Of a stretch of DNA of 64,000 nt, positions 10,260 to 62,497 are shown one piece after another. How positions within the stretch are numbered: position 1 is the first letter of the stretch; the number at the start of each line of letters is the position of its first letter. The notes beneath the pieces were generated by a model, which did no database searches, was not told where the DNA came from, and saw only the letters and a list, made by a program, of their open reading frames with translations. Source of the DNA: a virus; the IMG/VR virus record IMGVR_UViG_3300020205_002210, positions 57,250 through 121,249 of that record; one strand, 5' to 3'. The translations under genes and the position numbers were made by a program.

Positions 10260-10781
10260 ATGGCAAACGCATTTACATATCAAGTCATTAAAGACACAAC
10301 AGAACATACCGTTATTAAATTAACAGGTAAATTCGATGGTACTGGTCAAGAAGACAATAACAGAAGAATTACAGCAAACACATTGAGTGGTGCAATGGAC
10401 ACATCGAAAGCTAATTTGCTTTCATCGGCCGCAAACACCGGTTCTCTATCGTTTTATGGTTTATCTGTGAATCGTTTATGGTACTCAGGTCCTAATAATG
10501 CAGATGTTAATTTATTTTGGCACGCTGATACTACCGCATCAATATTCTTACTGAATAGTAACTGTGAATTTGATGGTCAAAGTAATTGGGTAACAATACC
10601 AAACAACACAAAAGGAACAGCAGGTTCCAAAGGTGATATAGGTATTCAAACTAGAGGCATGGTTGCGAACAATTCATATACATTAATATTAGAACTGCGA
10701 AAAGATAATGAACATTATCAACGCGGTCATTTGACAGATCCTGCTGCATTTAATTATGGTTCTTACTCCCTTCGACCATGA
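10260..10781 (+). CDS. Conserved virion protein of unknown function
   Basis: 173 residues. I know similar products from marine T4-like phages (opening AFTYQVIKDTTEHTVIKLTG), but not a defined function. It looks all-beta and ends NYGSYSLRP; a short GTAGSKGDIGIQT stretch resembles collagen-like spacers. An exact late octamer lies just upstream and its TGA overlaps an in-frame ATG of the prohead protease gene, so it is made late with head genes. A decoration or structural role is plausible but not shown. Confidence 0.55.
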   Translation: MANAFTYQVIKDTTEHTVIKLTGKFDGTGQEDNNRRITANTLSGAMDTSKANLLSSAANTGSLSFYGLSVNRLWYSGPNNADVNLFWHADTTASIFLLNSNCEFDGQSNWVTIPNNTKGTAGSKGDIGIQTRGMVANNSYTLILELRKDNEHYQRGHLTDPAAFNYGSYSLRP

Positions 10782-10789
10782 GGATCAAA

Positions 10790-11434
10790 ATGAAACTTAT
10801 TAAAGAGATCACCGAGTCAGTAAACTATCTCGTAGAAGAGACTGACGGAAAAAAAGTATTGTTCATCGAAGGACCATTTTTGGTCGCCGAAAGAACAAAC
10901 AAAAACGGCCGCATGTACAAAGAAGAAACTATGTCCAAAGAGGTTGGCCGTTATACTGAAGAATATATAAATAAAAATCGTGCCTTTGGTGAACTGGGAC
11001 ATCCAGATACCCCATCTATTAATCTTGACCGTGTATCACATTTAATTGTTGGTCTGCGGAAAGAAGATAATACTTGGATAGGCAAAGCAAAAATTCTTGA
11101 AACACCAATGGGCAACATTGCAAAAAGCCTTATCGAGGGTGGAGCACAATTAGGCGTGTCTTCTCGCGGTATGGGTTCTTTGAAGACTGTCAATGGTATC
11201 AACATAGTTCAAGATGACTTTCATTTAGCCACAGCGGCTGATATAGTAGCAGACCCTTCTGCGCCGGGTGCTTTTGTACAAGGTATTATGGAAGGTAAAG
11301 AGTGGATGATGGTTGAAGGAATATGGACTGAAGTTCATTATGAGGAAGCTCGTAGAGAAATCAAACAAGCTACCCCAAAACAGATCGAACAAGTCAGTTT
11401 AAAAATATTCGAAAATTTCATCAAAAAACTTTAA
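10790..11434 (+). CDS. 21: Prohead core protease gp21
   Basis: 214 residues from ATG 10790, chosen because AGGA lies five bases upstream; an ATG at 10778 would overlap the preceding TGA. It is the serine protease that degrades the scaffold and trims head proteins after assembly, cutting after (L/I)xE. His71 in GELGHP and Ser124/125 in GVSSRG are the catalytic pair, with Asp154 in IVADPSAPG near. Its own start MKLIKEITES resembles the capsid-targeting tags found later in this window. Confidence 0.92.
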   Translation: MKLIKEITESVNYLVEETDGKKVLFIEGPFLVAERTNKNGRMYKEETMSKEVGRYTEEYINKNRAFGELGHPDTPSINLDRVSHLIVGLRKEDNTWIGKAKILETPMGNIAKSLIEGGAQLGVSSRGMGSLKTVNGINIVQDDFHLATAADIVADPSAPGAFVQGIMEGKEWMMVEGIWTEVHYEEARREIKQATPKQIEQVSLKIFENFIKKL

Positions 11435-11472: not shown

Positions 11473-12732
11473 ATGGGAAAATACAATCTATCAGACGCTG
11501 CTAAAGCAATTTTGACAGAAGGCGCAAAGGAAAGCTTTGACGCTAATCTATCTTCTAAGCGTAGTGGCCAGGACGGCGCAACAAAATTACCAACATCTGT
11601 TGCTTATGGCATGAAAGATGTGGGTGAAGTTGCAGACGTTGTTGACAAACAAGATGATGTAAAGCCAGACTACACAAAAGGCACACCAACTGCAACACCT
11701 CCAGGTCCTACACCGCCAATCGGTTCAGAGCCAGGTTCTAAGTTGAGTGGTCCTGCTGATTCGGAAGGTTCTGAACACAAAGCCGTTCAAGCTGCTGCAA
11801 CTGACTATTCGGCCATTCGTGACCGTATCAAAGCCAGATTAGCAACTCAGACTATGCAAAGTAATCCTGGTGCAACTGCACCTTATGTTCCAGAAGAAGT
11901 TACTGAATCTGATCCAGTTATTTCAGAAGAAGAACATGAAGACAAAAAAGAAGACAAAGCACTCATCATGAAGATGATGAAGAAACAGAAAATGAAGGAA
12001 GAAATGGATTCCGATGTGAATGCATTGCTTTCTGGTGAAAACCTTTCTGAAGAATTCAAACAAAAAGCTACCACAATTTTCGAAGCTGCTGTTATTGCAC
12101 GATCACAATCCGTAGTGGAAGAAGTCGAACAAGCAATGTACGAGGAATTCGAAGTTGCTGTAGAAGAAATCAAAGAAGATTTGGCTGTTAAACTTGATGA
12201 CTACATCAGTTACATGGCTGAAGAGTGGTTCAAAGAGAACCAACTAGCAATTGAAAAAGGTCTGCGTTCAGAAATCGTTGAAGATTTCATTCGCGGATTA
12301 AAAGGATTGTTCGAAGAACACTACATTGACATTCCAGAAGAAAAAGTTGATGTTGTTGAACAATTGACAAACAGAGTTGAAGAACTGGAAGACTCATTAA
12401 ACGAACAGATCAAAACTGCCGTTGCAATGAAAAAGACTATCAGTGAACACAAAAAGAATGAGGCTATACATGCAGTATGTGAGGGCCTGACGCAGACGCA
12501 AGTAGAAAAATTTAAATCACTCGCAGAGGGTGTTGACTTTACTACTGAAGAAGAATTCGGAAGCAAAATGGACACATTGGTTGAATCATATTTTCAATCG
12601 ACCGTTAAATCCGCAGACAAATCTGTATTGAACGAAGAAGTGCTTGTGGAAGACGAAGCCAAGCCAGCGCGAAATGTTGATCCAACAATAGCGCAATATG
12701 CACAAACTATCTCAAAAACATTGGCTAAATAA
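11473..12732 (+). CDS. 22: Prohead scaffold (core) protein gp22
   Basis: 419 residues, longer than T4 gp22 (269). It forms the internal scaffold around which gp23 assembles and is then digested by gp21. Residues about 55-110 are a flexible stretch rich in P, G and T; from about 130 to the end the protein is very acidic and almost wholly helical (repeated EEV, EEL and KEE segments), typical of scaffold cores. A conserved tail, VDPTIAQYAQTISKTLAK, closes it. It lies between protease and capsid genes as expected. Confidence 0.9.
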   Translation: MGKYNLSDAAKAILTEGAKESFDANLSSKRSGQDGATKLPTSVAYGMKDVGEVADVVDKQDDVKPDYTKGTPTATPPGPTPPIGSEPGSKLSGPADSEGSEHKAVQAAATDYSAIRDRIKARLATQTMQSNPGATAPYVPEEVTESDPVISEEEHEDKKEDKALIMKMMKKQKMKEEMDSDVNALLSGENLSEEFKQKATTIFEAAVIARSQSVVEEVEQAMYEEFEVAVEEIKEDLAVKLDDYISYMAEEWFKENQLAIEKGLRSEIVEDFIRGLKGLFEEHYIDIPEEKVDVVEQLTNRVEELEDSLNEQIKTAVAMKKTISEHKKNEAIHAVCEGLTQTQVEKFKSLAEGVDFTTEEEFGSKMDTLVESYFQSTVKSADKSVLNEEVLVEDEAKPARNVDPTIAQYAQTISKTLAK

Positions 12733-12773: not shown

Positions 12774-14108
12774 ATGTTTCTAACAGAAGAACTACAAAAA
12801 AAATGGCAACCAGTTCTGGAGCACCCAGAATTAGAAGCGATTAGAGATCCATACAAAAAGGCTGTTACAGCTTTAGTGTTGGAAAACCAACAACAAGCTA
12901 TGTCACAAGACGCACAGGCACTGAATGAGACTACTTATTCAGCAACACCTGGTAATGCAACTGGTGCTAGCATTCAGAACTACGATCCAATCTTAATCAG
13001 TTTGGTTCGCCGTGCTTTACCTAACCTAATTGCATATGATGTTGCTGGCGTTCAGCCAATGACAGGACCTACTGGTCTGATCTTTGCAATGCGCGCTAAG
13101 TACAATACACAAGGTGGTACAGAAGCTTTCTTCAACGAAGCAAATACACTGTTCACTGGTGCTGGTTCGTCTGCTAACCCATACGGTTTCCGCGGCAATA
13201 ACGCAACCGACATTGTTACAAACACTGGTGCAGACTTGGTTGCTAACAGTTTCACAACTGGTATCGGCATGCCAACAAGCCGTGCTGAAGGTCTTGGTGC
13301 TGATGACTCTACAGGTATGTTCAATCAAATGGCTTTCTCTATCGAGAAAGTTACTGTGACTGCTCAATCCCGTGCGTTGAAAGCTGAATACTCTCTAGAA
13401 CTTGCACAAGACTTGAAAGCTGTTCACGGTCTTGATGCTGAAACAGAATTGTCAAACATTCTGTCTACAGAGATTCTTGCTGAAATCAACCGTGAAGTTA
13501 TCCGTACAATCTATACTTGTGCCGTTGCCGGTGCTCAGTATGGTACGACAACTGCTGGTTCATTCGACTTAGACACTGACTCTAACGGTCGTTGGTCTGT
13601 TGAACGTTTCAAAGGTCTGATTTTCCAAATCGAACGCGATGCAAACGTTATTGCTAAGCAAACTCGTCGTGGTAAAGGCAACGTGATGATCGTATCATCC
13701 GATGTTGCTTCCGCTATGGCAATGGCTGGTGTTCTTTCTTATACACCTGCACTGTCTGCTGACTTGCAAGTTGATGACACTGGTAACACCTTTGCTGGTT
13801 TGTTACACGGTCGTATCAAAGTGTACATTGACCCATATTTTGGTGGATATACTTCCAACCAAGAATTGGTTACAATTGGTTACAAAGGTACTTCACCTTA
13901 TGATGCTGGTATTTTCTACTGCCCATATGTTCCATTACAAATGGTTCGTGCAGTTGACCAATACACATTCCAACCTAAAATTGGTTTCAAGACTCGTTAC
14001 GGCATGGTTGCAAACCCATTCGCAACAGGTGCTTCAGCAAGTAACGGTGCATTGAATGCTCGTAGCAATGTGTACTATCGTATTTTCCAAGTCAAAAACT
14101 TGATGTAA
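12774..14108 (+). CDS. 23: Major capsid protein gp23
   Basis: 444 residues (T4 precursor: 521). HK97-fold capsid protein. Conserved blocks include LIAYDVAGVQPMTGPTGLIF, AMRAKYN, EGLGADDSTGMFNQMAFSIE, VTAQSRALKAEYSLELAQDL, AVHGLDAETELSNILS, and the C-terminal AKIGFKTRY-like GMVANPF. The N-terminus through about residue 50 should be removed by gp21. The coding sequence uses more C-ending codons than its neighbours, usual for the most abundant protein of the virion. An AAGGAG RBS precedes ATG and a strong terminator follows. Confidence 0.97.
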   Translation: MFLTEELQKKWQPVLEHPELEAIRDPYKKAVTALVLENQQQAMSQDAQALNETTYSATPGNATGASIQNYDPILISLVRRALPNLIAYDVAGVQPMTGPTGLIFAMRAKYNTQGGTEAFFNEANTLFTGAGSSANPYGFRGNNATDIVTNTGADLVANSFTTGIGMPTSRAEGLGADDSTGMFNQMAFSIEKVTVTAQSRALKAEYSLELAQDLKAVHGLDAETELSNILSTEILAEINREVIRTIYTCAVAGAQYGTTTAGSFDLDTDSNGRWSVERFKGLIFQIERDANVIAKQTRRGKGNVMIVSSDVASAMAMAGVLSYTPALSADLQVDDTGNTFAGLLHGRIKVYIDPYFGGYTSNQELVTIGYKGTSPYDAGIFYCPYVPLQMVRAVDQYTFQPKIGFKTRYGMVANPFATGASASNGALNARSNVYYRIFQVKNLM

Positions 14109-49312: not shown

Positions 49313-49314
49313 TT

Positions 49315-50564: not shown

Positions 50565-51238
50565 AAATAGCATTATGTTTTTCTGGCCAAGCCAGATCAT
50601 TTGAAAAAGGTTTTGAATATTACAAAAAGAACCTACTAGACCACTATGATGTGGATGTATACATTCACGCTTGGACATTCACTGAAGAAAAGAAACTTCT
50701 AGACTTATATAAGCCTGTAGGTTACGCTTTTGAAAAACCACCTGTAGGTGATTTTGATAGTATCTATACGAATACTCCAAATGCAGAAAAGTATCCGCCG
50801 AGGTTTACTTACCAGATGTTTTATTCGATGCACAATTGTGCCTCATTGGTTTTTAAAGAGTATGATTGGATAATTCGTTCTCGAACCGATTATGCACTTA
50901 ATACACCGATTCCTTTTGAACAGTTAGACAATACCAAGTTGTATGTTCCAAATTGTCGTATGGTACCAGAAAGAGACTTTGGTAATGACCAGTTCGCGTT
51001 TGGATCACAATCAACGATGATTAAATACATGTCTACATATAAGAACATAGACAAATACTACAATACAGGAAATCAATTTATCGGTGAAGATTTGATGCGA
51101 GCAAACCTACATGAACACAACCTTCATGGTGAAAATTTGGTATATGTCAATATGAATAATCCATTTCCACCCGGAGAACATAACGGAACTTGGCACTCTC
51201 TAATTCGTGATGATTATGCACAATGGGTAAAATCTTAA
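50561..51238 (+). CDS. Glycan-cluster protein, paralogue 2 (SGQxR family)
   Basis: 225 residues, overlapping its paralogue by four bases. KIALCFSGQARSFEKG, DVYIHAWTF, DWIIRSRTDYALNTP, then GNDQFAFGSQ and FIGEDLMRANL mark it. The layout agrees with glycosyltransferase-like proteins in bacterial surface clusters. It overlaps the kinase gene by 16 bases. Confidence 0.6.
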   Translation: MKIALCFSGQARSFEKGFEYYKKNLLDHYDVDVYIHAWTFTEEKKLLDLYKPVGYAFEKPPVGDFDSIYTNTPNAEKYPPRFTYQMFYSMHNCASLVFKEYDWIIRSRTDYALNTPIPFEQLDNTKLYVPNCRMVPERDFGNDQFAFGSQSTMIKYMSTYKNIDKYYNTGNQFIGEDLMRANLHEHNLHGENLVYVNMNNPFPPGEHNGTWHSLIRDDYAQWVKS

Positions 51239-51966
51239 AAGAGTTAACTGGCCATTCTGGTAGCACAATTTATTTGATGGAGTCCGATGACGGACACTAT
51301 ATCAGAAAAGAAAACAATATAACTCGTAATATCGAAAGACTTGGTGACCTTTATGAAAAAGGTTATCCTGTTCCACAATTATTGAGAATTGAAAATGATG
51401 CAATAGAGATGGAGTATGTACATGGGTTAGATATGAAAAACTATCTAATACATAACAACACACACTCCTTAATACAATTTATTGTTGACACCTGCGATTG
51501 TTTTGGTGAAAGTCATACTTTAAAAGATTACTCACAGGTATATTTACAAAAATTGAATTGGTTATCTGATGCACACGGTCTACCATTCACCAAAGAAGAA
51601 CTAATCGACACATTACCACAAATATTACCGTGTTCGACATACCACGGCGACTTGACGCTTGAGAATATCATATACACCGATCCCGGTTTTCATATGATAG
51701 ATGCAGTCACCATTGAATATGATTCATATATATTCGATATATCAAAGATGCGTCAGGACTTGGAGTGTAAATGGTTTCTACGACATTCTGATGTTCGCCT
51801 AGATACCAAGTTACAAAGCATTCAGGATGCATTGCGAGATTTGTATCCACAAGCATTTAACGATTCGTTACTGATACTCATGTTACTTAGAGTTTATCTA
51901 CACACCAAAAAAGGTGATAATAATTATAACTTCATTATGAAAGAGATTCATCGATTATGGAAATAA
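51223..51966 (+). CDS. Phosphotransferase of the aminoglycoside/choline kinase fold
   Basis: 247 residues. The ATP-site start is GSTIYLMESDDGHYIRKE with conserved Lys/Glu; IEMEYVHGLDM is the hinge; YHGDLTLENII (about 139-149) is the catalytic Brenner motif; FHMIDAV holds the metal-binding Asp. Such kinases phosphorylate choline, sugars or related alcohols. The next gene encodes a nucleotidyltransferase, so kinase plus nucleotidyl transfer could give an activated sugar or choline. Confidence 0.75.
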   Translation: MGKILKELTGHSGSTIYLMESDDGHYIRKENNITRNIERLGDLYEKGYPVPQLLRIENDAIEMEYVHGLDMKNYLIHNNTHSLIQFIVDTCDCFGESHTLKDYSQVYLQKLNWLSDAHGLPFTKEELIDTLPQILPCSTYHGDLTLENIIYTDPGFHMIDAVTIEYDSYIFDISKMRQDLECKWFLRHSDVRLDTKLQSIQDALRDLYPQAFNDSLLILMLLRVYLHTKKGDNNYNFIMKEIHRLWK

Positions 51967-52982
51967 TTGTACCTGCAGCTGGACTATCTACTAGATTTCC
52001 AGATATGAAACCAAAATACCTCTTATATGATTATAAAGGTGATTTGATGCTGGCAAACGCACTCAAACCATTTTTGCATAAACACAAGATACATATTGGA
52101 ATCTTGAAAGAACACAACGACAAATATAATGCTTCAGAGTTCATCAAACATGAGTTTGGAGATTCTGTAAACATAATTATACTGGATCAACCGACACGGG
52201 GTCCAGCAGACACGGTTTATCAGATTATAGATAAAGTTGGTCTATTCAATTCTGAAATTTTAATCAAAGACTGTGATAGTTTTTTCGACCATGAAATAAC
52301 TGAAGGTAATTATGTCTGTGTATCCAAAATATCTCAACATGAAGTTTTAAAGAAACTATCGTCCAAGAGTTTCACCATTTCGAACAACAACGGCATCATT
52401 ACTGATATCATTGAAAAGGAAGTGGTATCAGATACCTTCTGTGTTGGCGGTTATAAATTTTCAAGTGCATTGTTGTATAAACAGATGTTTAATGAACTAT
52501 CTTCACAAAGAGAAATTTTTGTTTCGGATGTTATTGGCCGTTGTATTAACAACCTGAACATTTTCACTGAAAAGATTGTTTCTAATTATATCGATGTGGG
52601 TACCGCACAAGACTGGTTTGATTACAATGATAAACCTGTAATATTTTGTGATATTGATGGCACAATCATTCAGGCTCAATCTAGGGTTGGTGATAAATCA
52701 TACGATAAAACTCCAGTGCCTTTGCAGAAAAATATAAACAGATTACTTGAATTGCAGTCTAAAGGTGCTCAATTTGTTTTTACAACATCCAGAGAAAATC
52801 AATATAAAGGTATGACGCGAGATATGTTATACTCTTTAGGATTTGCTTCCTTTGATTTGATTACAGGCCTGCAAAATTCTAGACGCATATTGATTAATGA
52901 TTTCAATAATTCAAACCCTTATCCGAGAGCTGAATCTATCAATCTATTTCGAGATTCGGATGACTTGGATCGTTACCTATGA
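51957..52982 (+). CDS. Fusion of sugar-1-P / choline-P nucleotidyltransferase and HAD phosphatase
   Basis: 341 residues. Residues 1-220 are a nucleotidyltransferase: IVPAAGLSTRFPDMKPKYLL is the nucleotide loop with its Lys, DQPTRGPADTV and LIKDCDSFF give the metal site. Residues about 228-341 are a HAD-type domain: FCDIDGTI (first Asp pair), TTSRENQYKG and LINDFN. Fusion of the two in one chain is uncommon and links activation with removal of phosphate. Overlaps neighbours by 10 and 4 bases. Confidence 0.78.
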   Translation: MEIIVPAAGLSTRFPDMKPKYLLYDYKGDLMLANALKPFLHKHKIHIGILKEHNDKYNASEFIKHEFGDSVNIIILDQPTRGPADTVYQIIDKVGLFNSEILIKDCDSFFDHEITEGNYVCVSKISQHEVLKKLSSKSFTISNNNGIITDIIEKEVVSDTFCVGGYKFSSALLYKQMFNELSSQREIFVSDVIGRCINNLNIFTEKIVSNYIDVGTAQDWFDYNDKPVIFCDIDGTIIQAQSRVGDKSYDKTPVPLQKNINRLLELQSKGAQFVFTTSRENQYKGMTRDMLYSLGFASFDLITGLQNSRRILINDFNNSNPYPRAESINLFRDSDDLDRYL

Positions 52983-53680
52983 TACCCGATAAAAACTTAT
53001 TCATTGTTACCTCCTCGTTGAAACCTGCGATTGGTGCATTCAATGATGATGATAGGTTTGCACAAACTATATCTACACTGGAATCTGTTAGAGAAGCCGT
53101 GCCGGATGCGATTATTGTATTTGCTGATGTTTCGATAAGGCCAGTAACACAAACAGAAAGAGAAGTAATAACTAGTTTATCTAATTACTATTTCGATTTA
53201 AGTCAGGAACCAAACACTCAGTATTGTGCAACCAATGGACTCAAAAGTCATGGAGAAAATTGTTTATTATCCGCAACATTGTCTACTATGAGAAACAATA
53301 CACAGTTTTCACCGGTATTAAAGACAGTCAAACGAATATTCAAGTTTTCAGCTAGGTCCGAATTAGAAAAGGACTTTGATATTAAAGAGTATGATAACTT
53401 GTTTGGCAAATTTGTATTTAAGACAAGAATACCAACTTGGACGCAAAATAAACAAACTGGTGCCGATCATCTTTTAATTACCAGGTTATGGTCCATGTGT
53501 CCCTCATTAATTGACGTTTATTTATCCGTCATAGCGGAAAACCTAAAATCTCTGTCAAATGGAGTGGTTGATACCGAACATGCCCACTATTGCAATATAC
53601 CTCAAAAATATCTAGTGGAATTTGATAAACTCCATTGTTGGGGCTGGCTGGCCGGCAATGGCCAAATTGAACACTATTAA
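52979..53680 (+). CDS. Glycan-cluster protein, unknown function
   Basis: 233 residues. NLFIVTSSLKPAIGAFNDDD begins a Rossmann-like strand and helix; SRSEL-like FSARSELEKDFDIKEYDN and QTGADHLLITRLWSM lie further on. It is the last gene of the cassette. It may be another sugar transferase of a divergent kind, but I see no clear DxD motif. Confidence 0.5.
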   Translation: MIPDKNLFIVTSSLKPAIGAFNDDDRFAQTISTLESVREAVPDAIIVFADVSIRPVTQTEREVITSLSNYYFDLSQEPNTQYCATNGLKSHGENCLLSATLSTMRNNTQFSPVLKTVKRIFKFSARSELEKDFDIKEYDNLFGKFVFKTRIPTWTQNKQTGADHLLITRLWSMCPSLIDVYLSVIAENLKSLSNGVVDTEHAHYCNIPQKYLVEFDKLHCWGWLAGNGQIEHY

Positions 53681-53704: not shown

Positions 53705-53745
53705 TTGCCATTTTTTCATAGATGTGGTATAATGTATTATAAATA
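53705..53745 (+). promoter_or_regulatory. Tandem early and late promoters
   Basis: Early: TTGCCA 53705-53710, 17-bp spacer, TATAAT 53728-53733. Late: exact TATAAATA at 53738-53745. Both point to the ATG at 53790. Confidence 0.78.
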
Positions 53746-53789: not shown

Positions 53790-54992
53790 ATGATATCATT
53801 TAAAAGTTTTTTAAAAGAGGACACGGATCCTGAAGAAGGTGCTAGTCGCCAGATTAAGCACCTGACTCATGTGGAAGACCGCCCTTTGCAAACTGGTGAA
53901 AAGGGTGCAAAGCATGCCATCAAATCTTTGTCAGCAGCCGCTGAACACATCAAATTTGGTAAAAAATCTTCTAAGTTAACTACAAAATATGACGGTTCGC
54001 CAGCGCTTGTTTATGGACACCATCCAAAGACGGGTAAGTTTTTTGTTGCATCTAAATCTGCTTTTAATAAGACACCTAAGATTAACTACACACCAAAAGA
54101 CGTAGATATGAACCACGGTCATGCACCTGGTCTCGCCGCAAAATTAAAAGATGCATTAACACATTTACCTAAAATTTCGCCTAAAAAAGGTGTGTACCAA
54201 GGCGATATGATGTTTGGTACACATAAAGATGACAAGAAAAGTGAAAAGGGCGGTGGAACATCGTTTCATCCTAATCCTTCTGGTCTAACCTATACTGCAC
54301 ACGGTTCACATGAATCTGAAGTTAAGAAGGCCAAGATTGGTGTGGTGACGCATCTTTCATATCACGGTAAAGATGCTGCAAGTTTAAATGCATCACATGA
54401 AGTTGACCATGAAAATTTCAACAAGCATTCCGATGTATTCTCTGTTGATCCGAGAATGGACAACTCAAAAGTGCATTTTAGTCCAGAAGAACAAAAGAAA
54501 TTTACTAAACATATTATGGCAGCTCAAGCAGTACACGATACACACGGAAATGACATGTATGCGGGAACTAGTGACCACCATGGTGTTGGTGGTTCGTTGG
54601 AAACTTATATGAACCACACTGTACGTACAGGTGAAGAATCTAACCACAAAAACTTTAAGTCTTGGTTAGAAACAACCAAAAATAAAGCAATTGACAAACT
54701 CAAAGTCGAAAAGAACAAGAAGTCCAAACAATCAGATTTAAAAGATGAATTGGGTAAAGTTGAACGTAATAAAAAACATTACAACAATATTTTCAAAATG
54801 CATGGTGAGTTGCAGAAGGCTAAAGATACACTTATTGGTGTTATGAATCAACATCAAGAGTTTCAACACACACATGGTGGTGAATCTGCGAATCCTGAAG
54901 GATATGTTTTTCACCACGATAATGAATCCGATAAATTTGTTAATCGTGCGGAATTCTCTCGTAGAAATTTTGCTGGAATAAGAAACATATAA
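53790..54992 (+). CDS. Tagged nucleotidyltransferase (ligase-like, DUF6267 type)
   Basis: 400 residues from ATG 53790. It begins MISFKSFLKE, like a T4 capsid-targeting tag. KYDGSPALVYG (K66, D68, G69) is motif I of the covalent nucleotidyltransferases (DNA and RNA ligases, capping enzymes); YQGDMMFG, the late NPEGYVFHH (about 368-376) and KFVNRAEF (about 383-390) fit motifs III, IV and V. A His-rich middle (about 200-275) is unusual. Family recalled as DUF6267. It could seal or modify nucleic acid on entry into a host. Confidence 0.6.
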   Translation: MISFKSFLKEDTDPEEGASRQIKHLTHVEDRPLQTGEKGAKHAIKSLSAAAEHIKFGKKSSKLTTKYDGSPALVYGHHPKTGKFFVASKSAFNKTPKINYTPKDVDMNHGHAPGLAAKLKDALTHLPKISPKKGVYQGDMMFGTHKDDKKSEKGGGTSFHPNPSGLTYTAHGSHESEVKKAKIGVVTHLSYHGKDAASLNASHEVDHENFNKHSDVFSVDPRMDNSKVHFSPEEQKKFTKHIMAAQAVHDTHGNDMYAGTSDHHGVGGSLETYMNHTVRTGEESNHKNFKSWLETTKNKAIDKLKVEKNKKSKQSDLKDELGKVERNKKHYNNIFKMHGELQKAKDTLIGVMNQHQEFQHTHGGESANPEGYVFHHDNESDKFVNRAEFSRRNFAGIRNI

Positions 54993-55007
54993 AAAGAATT
55001 AAACAAA

Positions 55008-55511
55008 ATGAAAACTTATAAACATTTCATCACTGAACAGGACGAAATAAATTCTTATTTAAATTCGTTGGATACTATGGTCGAGTCGTATGATTCGGAA
55101 ACATGCGAAGATGAGTACGATGAAGATTTTTTCAGATTAATTGAAAATGTAATTGAACCTGTAGAAGGTAAAGTTTCTTCAGACACCAAAGGTAAAATGC
55201 ATGAGTTGTTGGTTGGTTACCATTTAAAAGGTGGTAAACATATGTCAAAACACGTGGACAAAGAAGGTGACAGTCCACAACAAGCGCACGACAAACTCAA
55301 AAATACAATTCATCCAAATGACTATAAAAAAATGAATGCTAGAGCCAAAAGTGCAGCTAACGATATAAGAAAACAAGTTGAAACGAACGGACATAAAATA
55401 CATGATGTACATTGGACTTCAAAACCAGGAGACATTCACCGTTCAACTGGAATCCATGCGACTCAAAAAGAAGATGCTTCCGACATTGTTATAACAACAC
55501 ATAAGAAGTGA
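55008..55511 (+). CDS. Tagged protein, N-terminal half of a split nuclease-like gene
   Basis: 167 residues. It starts MKTYKHFITE, almost the T4 internal-protein tag. An acidic stretch (about 18-52) comes next, then GKMHELLVGYHLKGGKH and, at the end, EDASDIVITTHKK, the first half of a PD-(D/E)xK-like core. The next gene, one frame over, continues with GISLKV. The two are probably parts of one ancestral protein. Confidence 0.55.
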   Translation: MKTYKHFITEQDEINSYLNSLDTMVESYDSETCEDEYDEDFFRLIENVIEPVEGKVSSDTKGKMHELLVGYHLKGGKHMSKHVDKEGDSPQQAHDKLKNTIHPNDYKKMNARAKSAANDIRKQVETNGHKIHDVHWTSKPGDIHRSTGIHATQKEDASDIVITTHKK

Positions 55512-55518
55512 GGCATAT

Positions 55519-56124
55519 ATGCAAGTTATACACCACGGTATCAGTCTTAAAGTCACCGATTCATCATCCAAACATGTTCCAACATCAAACCCAGGAATTG
55601 AACATGCTGGACCAAATGCAAAAAAACACCTAGAAAATCATAGGAAATCAATTCTCAAAAAATATCCAGAATTGAAAAAAGCATCGAATTCCTCAGAGAG
55701 AAAGGGTATGTTAAAAGCAAACCCTTCAATGCAAGCTCACGTAAAACAAAAAAATCATGAAACTTTGAATAAAATTGCTAAAGATTTACATCACCATTTA
55801 TCAACAACATCAAAATCGGAACTGGTGCATCACATAAAACATGTATTGCATTCAAAAAGTACACCAATGGAAAAAGAAGGTCATAAACACATTAGACACG
55901 TTTCTTATACCACTAAAAATGGCCATGAACACAGTTCTATGAATCCGGGCACACACCACGAACACATTTATAATGATCCACATAATATTTCTGTTCACCA
56001 CAGTGGTTCTTCGGTACACTTTAAATACAAGGGAAAAACATTTGGTCGACATGCAATCAAATTTAGTTCTCAAAGTGATCCAATGAGTTCAGTGAAAGGT
56101 TCGGGCCAAACTTCCGGCAATTAA
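55519..56124 (+). CDS. C-terminal half of split nuclease-like gene
   Basis: 201 residues. MQVIHHGISLKVTDSSSKHV gives the S-L-K part of the core; then SNPGIEHAGPNAKKHLENHR and a His-rich region (HHHLSTTSKSELVHHIKHVL). It starts eight bases after the preceding stop with GAGG nearby. It lacks its own tag, so if packaged it must ride with the tagged half. Confidence 0.55.
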   Translation: MQVIHHGISLKVTDSSSKHVPTSNPGIEHAGPNAKKHLENHRKSILKKYPELKKASNSSERKGMLKANPSMQAHVKQKNHETLNKIAKDLHHHLSTTSKSELVHHIKHVLHSKSTPMEKEGHKHIRHVSYTTKNGHEHSSMNPGTHHEHIYNDPHNISVHHSGSSVHFKYKGKTFGRHAIKFSSQSDPMSSVKGSGQTSGN

Positions 56125-56125
56125 T

Positions 56126-57928
56126 ATGAAAAAGTTTTTAGAAAAAGTACAAGACGATGCAAAAACACACACGCCTGTGGTACTGGCGTTCGGCCGAATG
56201 AATCCTCCAACCACTGGTCACGAAATACTGGTTAACAGAGTGAAACAACTGGCCAAAGATTATAAAGCACCACATCATATTATTGTGTCACATTCTTTGG
56301 ATGCCAAGAAAAACCCATTAGAACTTGCAACTAAAATTAAACACGCAAAGAGATTCTTTCCTGGTGCAAACATAACCGGTTCAAGTAAAGAGAAACCAAC
56401 ATTTTTACAACATGCATCTGCATTACACCAAGCAGGCCACGACCACTTAATAATGGTTGCAGGTTCAGACCGTATTCCAGAATATGAAAATAAATTACAT
56501 CAGTATAATGGTGTGGGTACTGGTAAACTATTCAATTTTAAAAAGATTGATGTTAAGTCTGCTGGCCAGCGTGACCCTGATGCTGAAGGTGCAGAAGGTA
56601 TGTCAGCATCTAAAATGCGTGAACATGCAAAGAGTGGTGATTTCAATTCATTCAGACAAGGTGTTCCTTCACATGTTCCAGAAAAACACGCAAAAGAATT
56701 GTTCCGTGATGTTCGAAAAGGTATGGGGTTAAATGAAGATACCAATCGTGGGTTATTCAAAGCCATCTTCCTGACTGGTGGACCAGGTTCAGGTAAAGAT
56801 GTTGTTATACGAGAAGCAATTGCTGAACAAAAATTTGTAGAGTTGAACTCCGTACAGGCGTTCGACTATTTGATGGATAAACAAAAGTTAGCTGAGAAGA
56901 CTAATGACTACCGTAGAGAGTCCATACGCAATCGTGGACCATTAATTATCAATGGACCGGCCGATGACCATTCCAGAATAATTAGAATTAAAGAAGAGTT
57001 GGAAGAGTTGGGTTATGAAACTTCCATGGTATTCGTTGATACTACAGACACAGCCAGTAAAGAGCGTAATGAACGATTAGCAAAAATGATTGCTGAATCG
57101 GTCAGGTATGATAAGTGGAAACTTTCACAGACATGTAAAGAGTCCTACCGTCAAATATTTGAAAACTTTATAGATTTCGATAATAGCGGTTCATATGAGA
57201 GTTTGGAGGAAGTTATTAGTGACACCTACGAACAAATAAATACATTCGTTGAGAACAGAAATTATAATAGGATTGCGTTCTCTTGGTTGGAAAACAGTGG
57301 TAAAGTTAATATCACTGAGTCTGTTAAATCATTATTTAAGGAAAATGAAAATGTTAAGAAAACTTCTAGATTTTTTGAAAATTACAAAACCAGAGGCACC
57401 AGCCGAAGTGGTACAACCATCAAGCCAGCCGGAGGTCCAAAAGCCGACAATCTCGGAGACATTGCCGCAGACAATCGAGCCGCCGATCCAAACGCAGACA
57501 ACATCAAGTGGGACGCCTCAAAACGAAGAGGTGGTTACAACTTCAGAACCTACACCGAAGAAGTCCCAAGCATCAAAGTCTTCCCAGAGCCAAAAGAAAG
57601 CAACTTCTCCAAAGACAAAGAAAAAATAAAGAAGAAGGGTATGATCGATTCTCCGACAGTTAATCAGAGGATGAGAAACATCACAACAATCGGTCAGGAA
57701 TTTGATACAAGGACGCAGGGAACGGTTTATGCAATGTCTGGTCTCGGTGATGTAACTTATAGAGAACAGTTTGACTTTAAAGGTTTCAGAGAATCGTATA
57801 TGGATCCATCTGATTCCGAAATGGGTTTTGCTGGTACAGCAGGAAATGCAACAAACAAAGAGCCTATGGAAAATCCAAAAGATAAACTGGGTTACGATTA
57901 TATCAATAAGAAAAAGAAGAAAAAATGA
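56126..57928 (+). CDS. Adenylyltransferase-kinase fusion (NadR/cytidylyltransferase-like)
   Basis: 600 residues. Residues about 15-205 are a nucleotidyltransferase: FGRMNPPTTGHE with TTGH at 29-32 and GMSASKMREH as the ISSxxR counterpart. Residues about 215-375 are a P-loop kinase: LTGGPGSGKD (216-225), RIKEELEELGYETSMVFVDT and a lid region. A basic low-complexity tail from about 430 ends KKKKKK. It is a core gene of cyanophage relatives, called cytitidyltransferase. An NAD-type or nucleotide-repair role is suggested by NadR-like order; substrate unknown. N-terminus MKKFLEKVQD is only weakly tag-like. Confidence 0.7.
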   Translation: MKKFLEKVQDDAKTHTPVVLAFGRMNPPTTGHEILVNRVKQLAKDYKAPHHIIVSHSLDAKKNPLELATKIKHAKRFFPGANITGSSKEKPTFLQHASALHQAGHDHLIMVAGSDRIPEYENKLHQYNGVGTGKLFNFKKIDVKSAGQRDPDAEGAEGMSASKMREHAKSGDFNSFRQGVPSHVPEKHAKELFRDVRKGMGLNEDTNRGLFKAIFLTGGPGSGKDVVIREAIAEQKFVELNSVQAFDYLMDKQKLAEKTNDYRRESIRNRGPLIINGPADDHSRIIRIKEELEELGYETSMVFVDTTDTASKERNERLAKMIAESVRYDKWKLSQTCKESYRQIFENFIDFDNSGSYESLEEVISDTYEQINTFVENRNYNRIAFSWLENSGKVNITESVKSLFKENENVKKTSRFFENYKTRGTSRSGTTIKPAGGPKADNLGDIAADNRAADPNADNIKWDASKRRGGYNFRTYTEEVPSIKVFPEPKESNFSKDKEKIKKKGMIDSPTVNQRMRNITTIGQEFDTRTQGTVYAMSGLGDVTYREQFDFKGFRESYMDPSDSEMGFAGTAGNATNKEPMENPKDKLGYDYINKKKKKK

Positions 57929-58146
57929 AAACCTTTTCAAATTTCGTTAAAGAATCTACACAGGCGACTGTTGACCAAGATTCAGCTGAATTAGAAAGAC
58001 AAAAACAACATTTGCTTGACAAAGCCAAAGAATATTCGGATCAAGCTGATCGTGAAAACCAATTTGGCCATGGCGGTGCTGCGAGAGCCAAAGCTGATAC
58101 CTTTACTGCAGCTGCAAAAAATATATCTAACAATAACGGAGAATAA
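57925..58146 (+). CDS. Tagged small helical protein
   Basis: 73 residues. Starts MKTFSNFVKE, fitting the ten-residue capsid-targeting pattern, then a glutamine-, alanine- and lysine-rich helix (ELERQKQHLLDKAKEYSDQA). Overlaps the previous gene by four bases. After gp21 cleavage a 63-residue internal protein would remain, like the small T4 internal proteins. Confidence 0.6.
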   Translation: MKTFSNFVKESTQATVDQDSAELERQKQHLLDKAKEYSDQADRENQFGHGGAARAKADTFTAAAKNISNNNGE

Positions 58147-58148
58147 AA

Positions 58149-59200
58149 ATGATTAACTTAAAAAAAGATGATGCAGTTGCTGACGCTATTAGAGAAATTC
58201 TACAACAAGAAGCTCTCAAAGGCGACCAACACGAAATTGATGCAAACAAAAATAATAAAATTGATCCACACGACTTCAAATTACTACGTGCTAAAAAAGA
58301 AGTAAAGAAGGAAGAAGTTGAAGTAGTATATGAAGCAAATATTGAACCAACAAGCGCAAAGTCGAGATCACATATAAGTAATCTGTCAAACCCAATTACA
58401 AATACTGTGACTCATCCTAGTTCAGGCAAAGAAATTGGTATCATCACTAAGCAGCCAAGCGGAGAATATTACGCTCATCATTCAGCCGCAAAATTGTCAC
58501 ACGCAGAAAGTGGTACATTTGATAGTAAGGACAAGGCTCATCAGTTTATTCGTAACGCTCATGCCAAAGCTATTAAAAATAACACGTTGAGTGATAGATG
58601 GAATAAACAAAAAAAGTTACCACAATTTGCTAAAGAAGAAGTTGAACAGCTTGATGAATTGTCAAAGTCTACTCTTGGTTCTTATACTAAGAAAGCTTCC
58701 CGTGATGCTACGATTACTCGTAAAATTGGAGCTGACTTTGAAAATGATGCCAAACGATCAAGAAGTCCTGGTATGAAAGCTGCTGCTAATTCGCTTTCTG
58801 ACAAGTATAAGTCCAAATCTTGGAAGCGTAAAGCTGGTATTGATAAAGCGGTTGATCGTTTGACTAAAGAAGATGTTGAGGGTGTAAAACTGAAGACACT
58901 CAGCCAATTCAAAGAAGGTTGGAGTGAAATGCTGGCAGATGTTAAAAAGCGCGCAGAGCCACAACCATCAGGTGGTTCCGGCATCAAGCAAGGTTCACGC
59001 TATGGTGGAAGTAAACAGAAACCAGAAAAACCAGAAGACGAAAAAAAAAAGTAACTGAAAGCCAGGGTCCGACCAGTCAAACGGAAGTTCCCTTTGTTAC
59101 AAACAATTGTCCGCCAATGATTGATGCAAAGAAATTGGCCAAAAAATCTTTAACTAGAATCAGAAGCGAGATGATGGGTAAAGCTGGTACATCCGAATAA
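58149..59200 (+). CDS. EF-hand protein, long form through -1 frameshift
   Basis: The zero-frame product is 301 residues and stops at 59054. Residues 31-42 (DANKNNKIDPHD) form an EF-hand-like calcium loop; EVEQLDELSKSTLGSYTKKA and GVDRLTKED-like parts follow, and the end is K-rich. At 59045-59051 the text A AAA AAG comes directly before the TAA. A -1 shift there would read on for 49 residues (starting VTESQGPTSQTEVPFV, ending MMGKAGTSE) to TAA 59198. The added part looks like true coding. Unshifted, a 27-residue ORF starts at 59117. Confidence 0.55.
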
Positions 59201-59208
59201 GGTCAAAA

Positions 59209-59988
59209 ATGAGCAACTCGAAATTATTAAAATCTATAATTAAGAAGACATTGCCGAACGATGTAACTCCATCATTTGGCACTGATCCTAAAGATCCGTG
59301 GTCCGCAAAAGCAAATATTGCAGAAGAGTTAGATATGTCTGAAAGTGAATCGAGTATTCTTTCTAGATATTTAAAATCTAGAGGACTTAACCCTGAATTC
59401 GCTTCAAAAGACCAGAAAATTGCACATTCTAAAACTGGCCAATTCATTAAATGGAAACGCGACCACATGTTGGAATCCGATACAAATTATGGTCCAGAAT
59501 ACCAAGACAAAGTAAAGAGTGTTGGTATTAAAGCTAAACAAGGACCAATGAAAACGGTTTGGGTTCCAGCCAAGTATGGCACAGGTGGCCAGTACAAGGT
59601 TGTGCCTGTCGGTAACATAAAGGAATATATGGAACCAATGGCTGCAACACAATCACCTGGTGATGGTGCAAATAGTCCAGATGATGTTGAACCGATGCCT
59701 AAAGGTAAAAAACTGATTACAATGTCAAAGTCAGCCAGTATAGTCAAAGGATTATATAAGAGTCCGACTATAAAAGAAGATGCATACGATCCAGAAAAAG
59801 AAGAAAAACCTGCAGCCACAATGGGTAAAAAACCAAAGATGCAAAAAGACCCGGAAGACACCACTTCTGGCAAACCTTTGGCTGCTGCGATTATGTCAGG
59901 TGGAAAAACACTAACTGGTACTCCCAGAGATGTGATTGAAATTGATCCGTTGGTGATACCTCGCCGACCAGATTCCGAAAAACGATAA
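59209..59988 (+). CDS. Conserved protein of unknown function in the cargo region
   Basis: 259 residues. LLKSIIKKTLPNDVTPSFGT starts it; MSESESSILSRYLKSRGLNP with DQKIAHSKTGQFIKWKRDHM is the best conserved looking part, basic and helical. The C-terminal half is rich in P, K and G and likely flexible. No tag is seen. It follows the frameshift gene by eight bases after its long form stop. A DNA-binding or head-related role is possible. Confidence 0.5.
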   Translation: MSNSKLLKSIIKKTLPNDVTPSFGTDPKDPWSAKANIAEELDMSESESSILSRYLKSRGLNPEFASKDQKIAHSKTGQFIKWKRDHMLESDTNYGPEYQDKVKSVGIKAKQGPMKTVWVPAKYGTGGQYKVVPVGNIKEYMEPMAATQSPGDGANSPDDVEPMPKGKKLITMSKSASIVKGLYKSPTIKEDAYDPEKEEKPAATMGKKPKMQKDPEDTTSGKPLAAAIMSGGKTLTGTPRDVIEIDPLVIPRRPDSEKR

Positions 59989-59991
59989 ATA
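59984..59991 (+). promoter_or_regulatory. Probable late promoter (GATAAATA)
   Basis: One mismatch from TATAAATA, over the preceding stop and 33 bases before ATG 60024 with RBS AAAGGAGA. Confidence 0.55.
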
Positions 59992-60023
59992 CAAAGATAA
60001 CCCTCGGTTAAAAGGAGAAAAAA

Positions 60024-60890
60024 ATGTCATCTTGGGGAAATAACGATAACGCAGCTAACGCACCATATTGGGCTGTTGAGACAGTAGTTTCAACGAATGC
60101 GCCGACTGCATCCGCACCAACAGCTGCAAATGTTGCATTGCTGTATGGTAATACACAATTCCAGGCATATACACAAGGTATGACTGTTGGATTGTTCATG
60201 GTAGATGCTACAGAAACCACTGCTGGTGGTGATAATGTGGTAGATATCTCATTGTCAAATCAAGGTTCTGGATATGTTGCAGCACCAGGTGTAACTTTCA
60301 GTGGCGGTGGCGGCACAAGTGCTGCAGCTACTGCTTCTATTGCCGCCGGTAAAATTTCTAACATCACAATTACTAACGTAGGTTCTGGTTACACATCAAA
60401 TCCAACAATTACAATTGGCCAACCCAATTTAGTTATTCCAATAGATCAAGTTATTGTTGCAAACAACGTAATAATGTATACTGGCCATGGACAAGCAAAT
60501 AGTGCTGCTCTAGTTTATAACTGGAATGGTTCTGCAAACATTGGTGGTCTACTAAATGGTACAACATACTTTGTTGCTCCAGTTGATGCTAACAGATTCT
60601 CATTAGCAACAACTGCTGCTAATGCGGCTAACAATGTTATTATTGACCTTACAACACAAGGTGCTGCAACACAATACTTTGATATTGTTGATGGTGTTCG
60701 TGCAACTGCAATTGCTAGCCGTGGTTTGAGTCAAGGTGCTTCTGGTGCTGAACATGCAACACACATTGGCTGGAATTTGAAATCGGTTGGTTCAGGCGGC
60801 CGCGCAGGACGAGTTCAGTACGAAACTCTTGTTGCTTTGTCAAACCCAATTGGTGATGGTTCAGACGATTTATCTTTACCTGACGCTTAA
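60024..60890 (+). CDS. Virion structural protein (decoration-like)
   Basis: 288 residues. The opening (SSWGNNDNAANAPYWAVETV) and the end (GGRAGRVQYETLVALSNPIG, then DLSLPDA) are conserved among many T4-like virion proteins I recall. In the middle, a SNQGSGYVAAPGVTFSGGGG unit is repeated in weaker form (NVGSGYTSNPTITIG), a beta-rich repeat. It has a late promoter and strong RBS. Probably on the capsid surface or tail. Confidence 0.65.
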   Translation: MSSWGNNDNAANAPYWAVETVVSTNAPTASAPTAANVALLYGNTQFQAYTQGMTVGLFMVDATETTAGGDNVVDISLSNQGSGYVAAPGVTFSGGGGTSAAATASIAAGKISNITITNVGSGYTSNPTITIGQPNLVIPIDQVIVANNVIMYTGHGQANSAALVYNWNGSANIGGLLNGTTYFVAPVDANRFSLATTAANAANNVIIDLTTQGAATQYFDIVDGVRATAIASRGLSQGASGAEHATHIGWNLKSVGSGGRAGRVQYETLVALSNPIGDGSDDLSLPDA

Positions 60891-60895
60891 TTAAT

Positions 60896-60914
60896 AGGGG
60901 GTTAACTACCCCCC
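60896..60914 (+). repeat. Hairpin after the virion protein gene
   Basis: GGGGGTTAACTACCCCC type palindrome; no T-run, so a weak terminator at best. It may protect the mRNA end. Confidence 0.35.
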
Positions 60915-60922
60915 ATTTCAAT

Positions 60923-61309
60923 ATGTTTGATAATTTGAATGAAGATAATTTTGTGATGTATGCAATGAAATGTTATACGTCACCACATTGCATTGTCTCG
61001 GAATTTGAGGGAGATATCAAAAGAACGAAATACCTGAAAAGGTTGTTTCGTAGATATAAGATAACCAAGTCACTTAAAGAGAGATTGATTCTCAATCATA
61101 TCATCTTATTAAATAATGTTTTTGGTCCTGAAGCGACTGCAAGAATATTGTTTTATAAGACGGACGAAAGAGACTATGATATACTCAAAACATTTTTGGG
61201 TTATCTGGATATTATGCCCGATTTTGTTTATGGTATAAATGGAAAAACAATAGTATCATCAGAAATACCAATGGACACAAACGTTGTAGAGATATTAAGA
61301 AACATATGA
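60923..61309 (+). CDS. Conserved T4-like protein (DUF7207 type)
   Basis: 128 residues. MFDNLNEDNFVMYAMKCYTS, then YLKRLFRRYKITKSLKERLI, LNHIILLNNVFGPEATARIL and FYKTDERDYDILKTFLGYL: a well conserved helical protein of cyanophage and related genomes. It has no known function; by its place among head and late genes a virion assembly role is possible. It overlaps the next gene by four bases. Confidence 0.7.
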   Translation: MFDNLNEDNFVMYAMKCYTSPHCIVSEFEGDIKRTKYLKRLFRRYKITKSLKERLILNHIILLNNVFGPEATARILFYKTDERDYDILKTFLGYLDIMPDFVYGINGKTIVSSEIPMDTNVVEILRNI

Positions 61310-61560
61310 AAACATTTCAAGAGTTTATTAACGAAGACTTGAGACAATGGTTTAAACAGAAGTGGGTTCGCATGGACACCAAAGGAAATATCAAGGGTGA
61401 TTGTGCAAGAGAACCTGGTGAAGGTAAACCAAAATGTCTTCCACAAGCTAAAGCTCATTCGATTGGCAAAGAAGCTCGTGCTTCAGCTGCTCGCAGAAAG
61501 CGTAGAGAAGATCCTAATCCAGAACGCCGAGGTTCACCAATTAATGTTAGAACAAAATGA
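61306..61560 (+). CDS. Tagged small basic protein (DUF6321-like)
   Basis: 84 residues. Tag-like start MKTFQEFINE, identical in seven of ten positions to the T4 tag MKTYQEFIAE apart from conservative changes. WVRMDTKGNIKGDCAREPGE, KCLPQAKAHSIGKEARASAA and RRKRREDPNPERRG make a very basic, nucleic-acid-binding looking domain with two cysteines. Packaged with DNA it could act on entry. Overlaps both neighbours by four bases. Confidence 0.65.
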   Translation: MKTFQEFINEDLRQWFKQKWVRMDTKGNIKGDCAREPGEGKPKCLPQAKAHSIGKEARASAARRKRREDPNPERRGSPINVRTK

Positions 61561-62252
61561 AAAGACTAAAAGAATTCTTAGAACAAGTTGAAAACTTAGA
61601 AGAAAAAAATGTTCCAACAAGTCCTGAAAAATGGGCTAGGGCTAAGTCTGCTGCTAAATCAAAATTTGCAGTTTATCCTTCTGCTTACGCTAATGGCTGG
61701 GCTTCTAAAAAATATAAAGCTATGGGTGGTGGATGGAAATCCGTTAGTGAGAATCATATTGCTATCGCCATGGGTAAAGAAATGGATGATGAAGGCAGTA
61801 TGATTATGAATCAACTTGACCAAATGCAGAGGTCTATTAATATGATGCGTGATGTGGTTAAGGATCCAAGTATGCAGGTTCCTGCTTGGGTTCAATCTAA
61901 AGTAACATTGGCCGCTGACTACATTGACACAGCTGCAGGTTACATGTCTAGTAAAAATGAAGAAGTTGACCTAGAAGAAACCGCCGCATGGCAACGCAAA
62001 GAAGGTAAAAATCCTTCAGGTGGTTTGAACCAAAAAGGTGTTGATTCTTATCGTAGAGAGAATCCAGGTTCTAAACTAAAGACAGCTGTGACAACAGAAC
62101 CATCAAAGTTAAAAGCTGGTTCAGCTGCAGCGAATCGCCGTAAATCATTTTGTGCTAGAATGTCTGGTATGAAGAAAAGATTAACCTCAGCAAAAACTGC
62201 TAAAGATCCAGATTCACGCATCAACAAATCTCTACGTAAGTGGAACTGTTAA
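61557..62252 (+). CDS. DUF5872-DUF6321-type basic protein
   Basis: 231 residues. Start MKRLKEFLEQ is partly tag-like. WARAKSAAKSKFAVYPSAYA (about 26-45) is the DUF5872 pattern also seen in giant viruses; the C-terminal third (AWQRKEGKNPSGGLNQKGVD, SYRRENPGSKLKTAVT, RRKSFCARMSGMKKRL, LRKWNC) is the DUF6321 pattern. Basic, probably DNA-binding. Assignments are by memory of these patterns. Confidence 0.65.
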   Translation: MKRLKEFLEQVENLEEKNVPTSPEKWARAKSAAKSKFAVYPSAYANGWASKKYKAMGGGWKSVSENHIAIAMGKEMDDEGSMIMNQLDQMQRSINMMRDVVKDPSMQVPAWVQSKVTLAADYIDTAAGYMSSKNEEVDLEETAAWQRKEGKNPSGGLNQKGVDSYRRENPGSKLKTAVTTEPSKLKAGSAAANRRKSFCARMSGMKKRLTSAKTAKDPDSRINKSLRKWNC

Positions 62253-62497
62253 TGAAATCATTTCAAGACTATATCACAGAAAAAGGCAGATGTTGGCCTG
62301 GTCATAAACCAGTTCCAGGTAAAAAAGCTTTTACACCGGGTTCTTGTATGAAAGAAGACGGTATAGCTGCTGCACCAACAAATGCTGTTGGTTCCGGGGA
62401 AATTGCTGGAACTGGTGGCACAGCAGGCGAACCAGGTGTTTCTAAGAAACGAAATCCACTAATGTCGTTCTTCAAACGCAAACAACCAAAAATATAA
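62252..62497 (+). CDS. Tagged small protein
   Basis: 81 residues from ATG 62252, overlapping the previous TAA by one base. Start MKSFQDYITE fits the ten-residue tag. RCWPGHKPVPGKKAFTPGSC resembles short cysteine motifs of DUF6321-like proteins, and the middle is G, A-rich. A small internal head protein is the best guess. Confidence 0.55.
   Translation: MKSFQDYITEKGRCWPGHKPVPGKKAFTPGSCMKEDGIAAAPTNAVGSGEIAGTGGTAGEPGVSKKRNPLMSFFKRKQPKI

Follow-up and report, generated by a model that had tools for sequence, protein, structure and literature searches.

A probable T4-type capsid-targeting tag on late proteins of a Kyanoviridae-like phage, among them a ligase-like protein and one of the two parts of a split nuclease-like protein

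In the final 64,000 bases of the 121,249-base IMG/VR virus record IMGVR_UViG_3300020205_002210 (here called the window), a gene cluster at positions 53790-62497 encodes five proteins that begin with a ten-residue segment of one pattern: an aromatic residue at positions 4 and 7, an aliphatic residue at 8 and Glu at 10 (F/Y4-F/Y7-[ILV]8-x-E10). We consider it highly likely that these segments act as T4-type capsid-targeting propeptides, which would dock on the scaffold core, be cut after Glu-10 and leave the head with the DNA, as a module on varied cargo. The tag probably marks enzymes carried by the phage into its host. The tagged starts, and a sixth resembling them, read from the sequence as follows.

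53790..53819, plus strand: tag 1, MISFKSFLKE
55008..55037, plus strand: tag 2, MKTYKHFITE
57925..57954, plus strand: tag 3, MKTFSNFVKE
61306..61335, plus strand: tag 4, MKTFQEFINE
62252..62281, plus strand: tag 5, MKSFQDYITE
61557..61586, plus strand: partial tag, MKRLKEFLEQ (Leu at 4, Gln at 10)

The five N-termini are exactly those named in an earlier, sequence-only reading of this DNA, each at an ATG at its coordinate. The sixth is partial, as that reading had said, with neither an aromatic residue at 4 nor Glu at 10. The open reading frame (ORF) caller extends two of the genes to GTG codons (53790 to 53766, 62252 to 62240); the ATG starts are supported by orthologues of the 53790 protein in the DUF6267 family, which keep the tag just upstream of a conserved HLxHxED body. 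Among ATG-started frames of at least 50 aa in the whole record, the motif occurs at 7 places, which are the five tagged genes and two ATGs within other genes (47199, 49121), and at no other gene start. Shuffling of residues 2-13 gives an expectation of 0.022 tagged genes among the 130 predicted, against the five observed (four from the automatic call, plus 55008, which the start-picker had missed). The same motif scan picks up T4 IPIII (MKTYQEFIAEA).

The alignment of N-termini across relatives that the sequence-only reading had suggested was run, and reveals position-specific constraint in DUF6267. Each of the residues Phe-4, Phe/Tyr-7, Leu/Ile-8 and Glu-10 is present in 80 of the 81 relatives, and positions 2, 3, 5, 6 and 9 are variable. 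The same constraint is observed in most relatives over body identities from 100% down to about 31%, and the spacing F..[FY][LI].E is retained even when one residue is missing from the lead. In T4 IPIII, targeting depends on residues 4 and 7 and processing on residues 8 and 10, and the gp21 protease cleaves after L/I-x-E (PMC9026906). Since the fixed positions coincide with those mapped in T4, we read the tag as a T4-type capsid-targeting sequence. The DUF6267 body carries the tag in the window phage and in Melnitz-1 and lacks it in P-HM2, S-PM2 and similar cyanophages (MSKNTHLEHLED), which indicates that the tag is a module; a degenerate form, MFSFKGF, is attached to the body in a few relatives. 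In Melnitz-1, a cultured Methylophilales phage, the tags MQGFKTFLSE and (L)INFSKYITE are seen. The structure model of 53790 gives residues 5-18 a confidence below 50, and the body one near 90.

The tag is also widespread. In all fetched loci, which were collected via the DUF6267 and nuclease families, 204 of 2,269 distinct N-termini are tagged, where 0.76 are expected from the internal motif frequency and 0.68 from shuffled N-termini. Because the two families had selected the loci, both were left out of a recount, in which 108 of 2,080 N-termini were tagged vs 0.72 expected. The tagged bodies form about 30 clusters; some of these share segments, so the unrelated families are likely somewhat fewer. 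It could be argued that the segments arose by chance, or that the proteins are paralogues keeping an ancestral N-terminus with no targeting function, and some small tagged proteins do share N-terminal segments past the tag (the 62252-type start recurs on other bodies). However, most tagged bodies are unrelated, the chance expectation is only 0.02-0.7, and in DUF6267 the contrast between fixed and variable positions holds to 31% identity. Several nulls refute chance, and the position-specific constraint does the same for shared ancestry. We therefore regard this explanation as hardly credible.

T4-type genes in the window comprise the terminase large subunit, prohead protease, scaffold and major capsid protein. 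The last three map as follows, with their PHROG matches.

10778..11434, plus strand: prohead (head maturation) protease, gp21 type (phrog_207, E 1.1e-77)
11473..12732, plus strand: scaffold protein, gp22 type (phrog_237, E 1.6e-81)
12774..14108, plus strand: major capsid protein, gp23 type (phrog_138, E 2.4e-159)

A gp21-type protease and a gp22-type scaffold are thus encoded by the same phage as the tagged genes. The former is presumed to cut the tags and the latter is presumed to be the partner that they bind. The scaffold contains LTE|G close to its own N-terminus.

The first tagged gene is preceded by a candidate late promoter.

53738..53745, plus strand: TATAAATA, T4-type late promoter candidate, 52 nt upstream of 53790

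We take TATAAATA to be the T4 late-promoter core. The evidence for it is its place and its conservation, since in the window as a whole it is no more frequent than expected by chance. TATAAAT is found at most 120 nt upstream in 52 of 81 distinct tagged DUF6267 genes, most often at -60 to -50, where 0.024 per 120 nt would be expected. The promoter candidate and its recurrence in the relatives support the description of these genes as late.

Published mass spectrometry places tagged proteins in the virions of related phages. One of them corresponds to a protein of the window cluster.

56126..57928, plus strand: cytidylyltransferase/NMNAT-like protein with a P-loop region (phrog_3041, E 1.6e-63)

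Homologues of this protein were detected in virions of S-CREM2 (PMC10665884), S-SZBM1 (PMC9146016), S-SCSM1 (PMC9602691) and S-SM1 (PMC3037559). We inspected the N-termini in the first three phages and found the tag in each: MKNFSSFLTEADEK in S-CREM2 (tag MKNFSSFLTEA), MRFRQFIIEAVAAA in S-SZBM1 (tag MRFRQFIIEA) and MKSFLQFLKEAAES in S-SCSM1 (tag MKSFLQFLKEA). Further tagged virion proteins of S-CREM2 are an S-adenosylmethionine (SAM) hydrolase (MKDFDSFLEE), an APH-like kinase (VKRFDAFLTE), gp13 (MKDLHSFLTE) and gp136 (MQTFSMFFSE). S-CREM2 has 219 proteins, 52 of which were found in virions; these 52 include five of the six proteins tagged at their annotated start (hypergeometric 0.003), with a motif relaxed to Leu at 4 and Phe at 8; a stricter motif gives four of five (hypergeometric 0.012). 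About 13 of the 219 genes lay outside the scanned regions. The kinase of S-CRM01 is said to be a virion protein in the S-CREM2 paper (PMC10665884), and its annotated start, assuming that it is the same gene as the detected kinase, reads MISFDQFLSE. The DUF6267 protein of S-SZBM1, which is untagged, is absent from the list of 30 virion proteins; the numbering of paper and record was matched through gene order and length. With position-specific conservation and a gp21-type protease of the phage's own, this published detection supports the earlier identification of a T4-type capsid-targeting tag.

The Cas9-like virion protein gp12 of S-CREM2 (locus L253, 7704-10313) contains a tag motif, LRFASFMAE, at residues 17-25. 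Its placement suggests that a nuclease-like protein is packaged, unless the start is misannotated.

Several points weigh against capsid targeting. The S-CREM2 authors state that detection in CsCl-purified particles may be contamination (PMC10665884), and one tagged S-CREM2 protein of 55 aa was not detected in the virions as reported there. The window NMNAT-like protein starts with MKKFLEKVQD, only a degenerate tag, in contrast to the exact tags of its virion homologues in cyanophages, and 61557 has Gln at position 10. The residue following Glu-10 is often S, Q, E, K or D, where T4 IPIII has Ala. Our searches found neither virion proteomics of this phage or close relatives nor N-terminal peptide data for cutting after Glu-10. 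The source papers leave undecided whether such enzymes are packaged or contaminants, and their relevant passages do not mention the tag. Given that the virion enzymes carry the tag, packaging is the better explanation.

A broader form of this doubt is that the N-terminus binds another partner, for example the replisome, a membrane or a host protein, and that virion detection reflects contamination by abundant late proteins. Such contamination is allowed for by the S-CREM2 authors. However, the fixed positions are the experimentally mapped T4 targeting and cutting positions, and tagged proteins are enriched among virion proteins and occur in the virions of several phages in separate studies. 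We consider binding to another partner very improbable.

From the targeting reading, we infer the following route. Late transcription would yield tagged precursors, which would dock through aromatic residues 4 and 7 on the gp22 scaffold core of the prohead. The gp21-type protease would trim them after Glu-10 ([ILV]-x-E), and the freed proteins would remain in the mature head and exit together with the DNA, so that enzymes among them could act in the host. The cargo would be modular, here comprising a ligase-like nucleotidyltransferase, one split-nuclease half and small proteins, and in relatives NMNAT-like enzymes, kinases, SAM hydrolase and others. It is also conceivable, if unlikely, that the proteins are targeted to the prohead core for a role confined to head assembly or DNA packing, with no effectors in the next host. 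T4 IPIII influences head morphogenesis (PMC9026906), gp21 also handles scaffold and core components, and several tagged proteins are small and basic. On the other hand, the ligase-like, NMNAT-like, kinase, SAM-hydrolase and nuclease-like bodies have no obvious role in assembly, and tags have been gained and lost on the same enzyme body. The sequence-only reading had spoken of several basic nucleic-acid-binding proteins. Minus their tags, 53790, 61306 and 62252 are indeed basic, but 57925 and 55008 are acidic, with isoelectric points (pI) of 5.2 and 5.9.

Tagged cargo of this kind has clear precedents in T4. The tags of IPI, IPII and IPIII share with those described here their place in the N-terminal ten residues, the aromatic residues at 4 and 7, the aliphatic residue at 8 and Glu at 10, as well as the L/I-x-E site and a gp21-type protease in the same genome. 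What sets the present tag apart is its range, which covers about 30 body clusters in Kyanoviridae-like phages infecting aquatic bacteria, with several enzymes among them; Ala also follows the Glu less often. T4 Alt is likewise a head-carried enzyme, an ADP-ribosyltransferase that is cut by gp21 and delivered to the host (PMC9026906), but it has a 7-residue propeptide and another chemistry. The Pfam and PHROG matches of the window tagged proteins include no family with homology to the Alt or IPI-III bodies. The virion NMNAT/cytidylyltransferase, kinase, SAM hydrolase and Cas9-like proteins of S-CREM2, S-SZBM1, S-SCSM1 and S-CRM01, which include the 56126 homologues, have the same tag; the source papers treat them as unexplained virion proteins or possible contaminants.

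Because T4 already packs and injects IPI-III and Alt, one of them an enzyme, the cargo is best seen as extending a known kind, the split nuclease being its unusual element, and its earlier description as a new system was overstated. The idea that T4-like phages can pack a variety of proteins by means of the tag has been put forward in a review (PMC9026906), which was the only paper found on capsid-targeting sequences in connection with cyanophages in a search that left subscription papers and preprints outside; the same literature yielded no paper on DUF6267. Within it, the breadth of the tag, the enzyme cargo and the split nuclease are new, the tag itself being of a known kind. The puzzle of NMNAT-like enzymes, kinases, SAM hydrolase and a Cas9-like protein in cyanophage particles would become a testable rule that can be read from sequence, by way of the ten-residue N-terminal tag. 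Candidate injected proteins of abundant, mostly uncultured aquatic phages, including candidate counter-defence proteins, could be listed from genomes.

The first tagged protein appears to be a ligase-like nucleotidyltransferase.

53790..54992, plus strand: DUF6267 protein, 400 aa, ligase-like nucleotidyltransferase (PF19782, E 9.7e-90; phrog_455)

In 39 diverse DUF6267 members, K66-D68-G69, Q137-D139, E370-G371-V373 and K382/R386 are invariant. The corresponding family motifs, KxDG, QxD, EGxV and KxxxR, read KxDG, QGD, PEGxV and KxVxR in 53790. We take this to be the motif pattern of the ligase/capping-enzyme superfamily. For this protein and the nuclease, fold searches were run because sequence-profile searches gave no match above noise: the profile search of 53790 returned no PDB or Pfam ligase assignment above noise, and no match to solved ligases by sequence. 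The AlphaFold2 (AF2) model has a predicted local distance difference test score (pLDDT) of 90, and the top 15 PDB matches in Foldseek are DNA ligases, with modest scores (best E 6e-3, prob 0.85, TM about 0.2). ATP/NAD-dependent DNA and RNA ligases thus dominate the fold search and share the KxDG, EGxV and K.V.R motifs with 53790, which differs from them in its long helical insertion, the modest Foldseek E value and the lack of a sequence-level match. Motifs and fold search agree with the ligase-like assignment made earlier.

The second tagged protein is one half of a putative nuclease that is encoded by two genes.

55008..55511, plus strand: N-terminal half of a split PD-(D/E)xK-like nuclease, with putative E and D motifs, tagged
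55519..56124, plus strand: C-terminal half of the split nuclease, with a putative SLK motif, no tag

As the sequence-only reading had proposed, 55008 is half of a split nuclease-like protein: the two genes correspond to a single ORF in L105-L108 (L numbers denote fetched loci) and many other relatives. The AF2 model of the fused form (pLDDT 87) finds HinP1I as its best, weak PDB match (E 0.022, prob 0.80), with BamHI and AddAB lower in the search; the sequence profiles gave no PDB or Pfam match above noise. The predicted fold and the order of the putative E, D and SLK motifs are shared with HinP1I and BamHI, which have the PD-(D/E)xK restriction-endonuclease fold, but the match is weak, the protein is encoded by two genes with the joint between the D and K strands, and it has long helical insertions. 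The stop and restart fall after ...SDIVITTHKK and before M.V.HHGISLK, which places them between the strand of the putative catalytic Asp and that of the putative SLK Lys. A search of isolated phages with the N half gave no match.

The split is found at the same joint in separate lineages (window 55508-55519, L101, L127, L128, L137, L142, L146 and L159). A tree of 53 sequences requires four switches between the split and the fused state. Well-supported branches force at least three of these, so splitting (or refusion) has recurred at this joint. Both halves are under purifying selection, with dN well below dS in all pairs. An assembly error is rejected because of this selection and because the joint is kept although the stop, spacer and restart differ among about 19 loci. 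Programmed frameshifting is not favoured, as inspection by eye showed no common slippery sequence and, in several loci, a Shine-Dalgarno-like sequence ahead of the second ATG.

The N half is tagged in the window clade and in many fused relatives, and the C half has no tag. Two ideas are equally compatible with the data on this arrangement: only one half may be packed, so that no active nuclease is present among the phage DNA, or both halves may come together beforehand and enter as a pair. How a phage may carry a nuclease beside its own DNA can be asked concretely of this nuclease, with its repeated splitting and its single tagged half. A more far-reaching idea, which we hold to be rather doubtful, is that tag-defined injected enzymes (ligase-like, NMNAT-like, kinase, phosphatase and nuclease) are a widespread, modular set that processes nucleic acids or nucleotides on entry. 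The functionally split nuclease would then be inactive among packaged genomes and whole once the delivered half meets the other half, at a joint that evolved repeatedly.

Other relatives of the nuclease open with M.SIQ..IWL.RAGLL.E, which likewise ends in L-x-E (in L100-L166, e.g. L101 2769, L123 5956 and L131 1322). This segment may be another head-targeting peptide. It was rejected as a general tag alongside the first, since it occurs only on the nuclease family among the loci examined.

The remaining proteins of the cluster are small or basic.

57925..58146, plus strand: small acidic tagged protein, 73 aa (pI 5.2 minus tag)
61306..61560, plus strand: small basic tagged protein, 84 aa, phrog_727 N part (pI 10.7 minus tag)
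61557..62252, plus strand: DUF6321 protein, 231 aa, basic (PF19846, E 4.1e-20; phrog_727)
62252..62497, plus strand: small basic tagged protein, 81 aa

In the family cluster of 57925, 23 of 24 members are tagged. A DUF6321-type relative of 61557 carries an exact tag (L065 16920, MKTFKQYLDE). The first ~35 residues of 62252 are fused to other bodies in relatives, and the post-tag start KGRCWxGxKPVxGKK, the 61306 body and the DUF6321 body occur in differing combinations (L081 17356-18009; L065 16920-17318; window 61306, 61557 and 62252), which indicates domain shuffling behind the tag.

Further tagged bodies in relatives have weak Pfam matches to a zeta-toxin-like P-loop kinase, HAD-type phosphatases/5'-nucleotidase and a nucleotidyltransferase, at four loci:

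L228, 11976-12929
L185, 1427-2053
L240, 9054-9629
L242, 10676-11158

These matches hint at a theme of nucleic-acid or nucleotide processing among the tagged bodies.

Upstream of the tagged region, genes for DNA polymerase, UvsX and a helicase are tentatively assigned from gene order and length, by synteny with P-HM2, S-PM2 and HTVC008M. Between the replication genes and the tagged cluster, at 47760-53680, glycosyltransferase-like, nucleotidyltransferase-like and kinase-like genes form a run, judged by eye from the translations; many of its genes are present in only part of the relatives.

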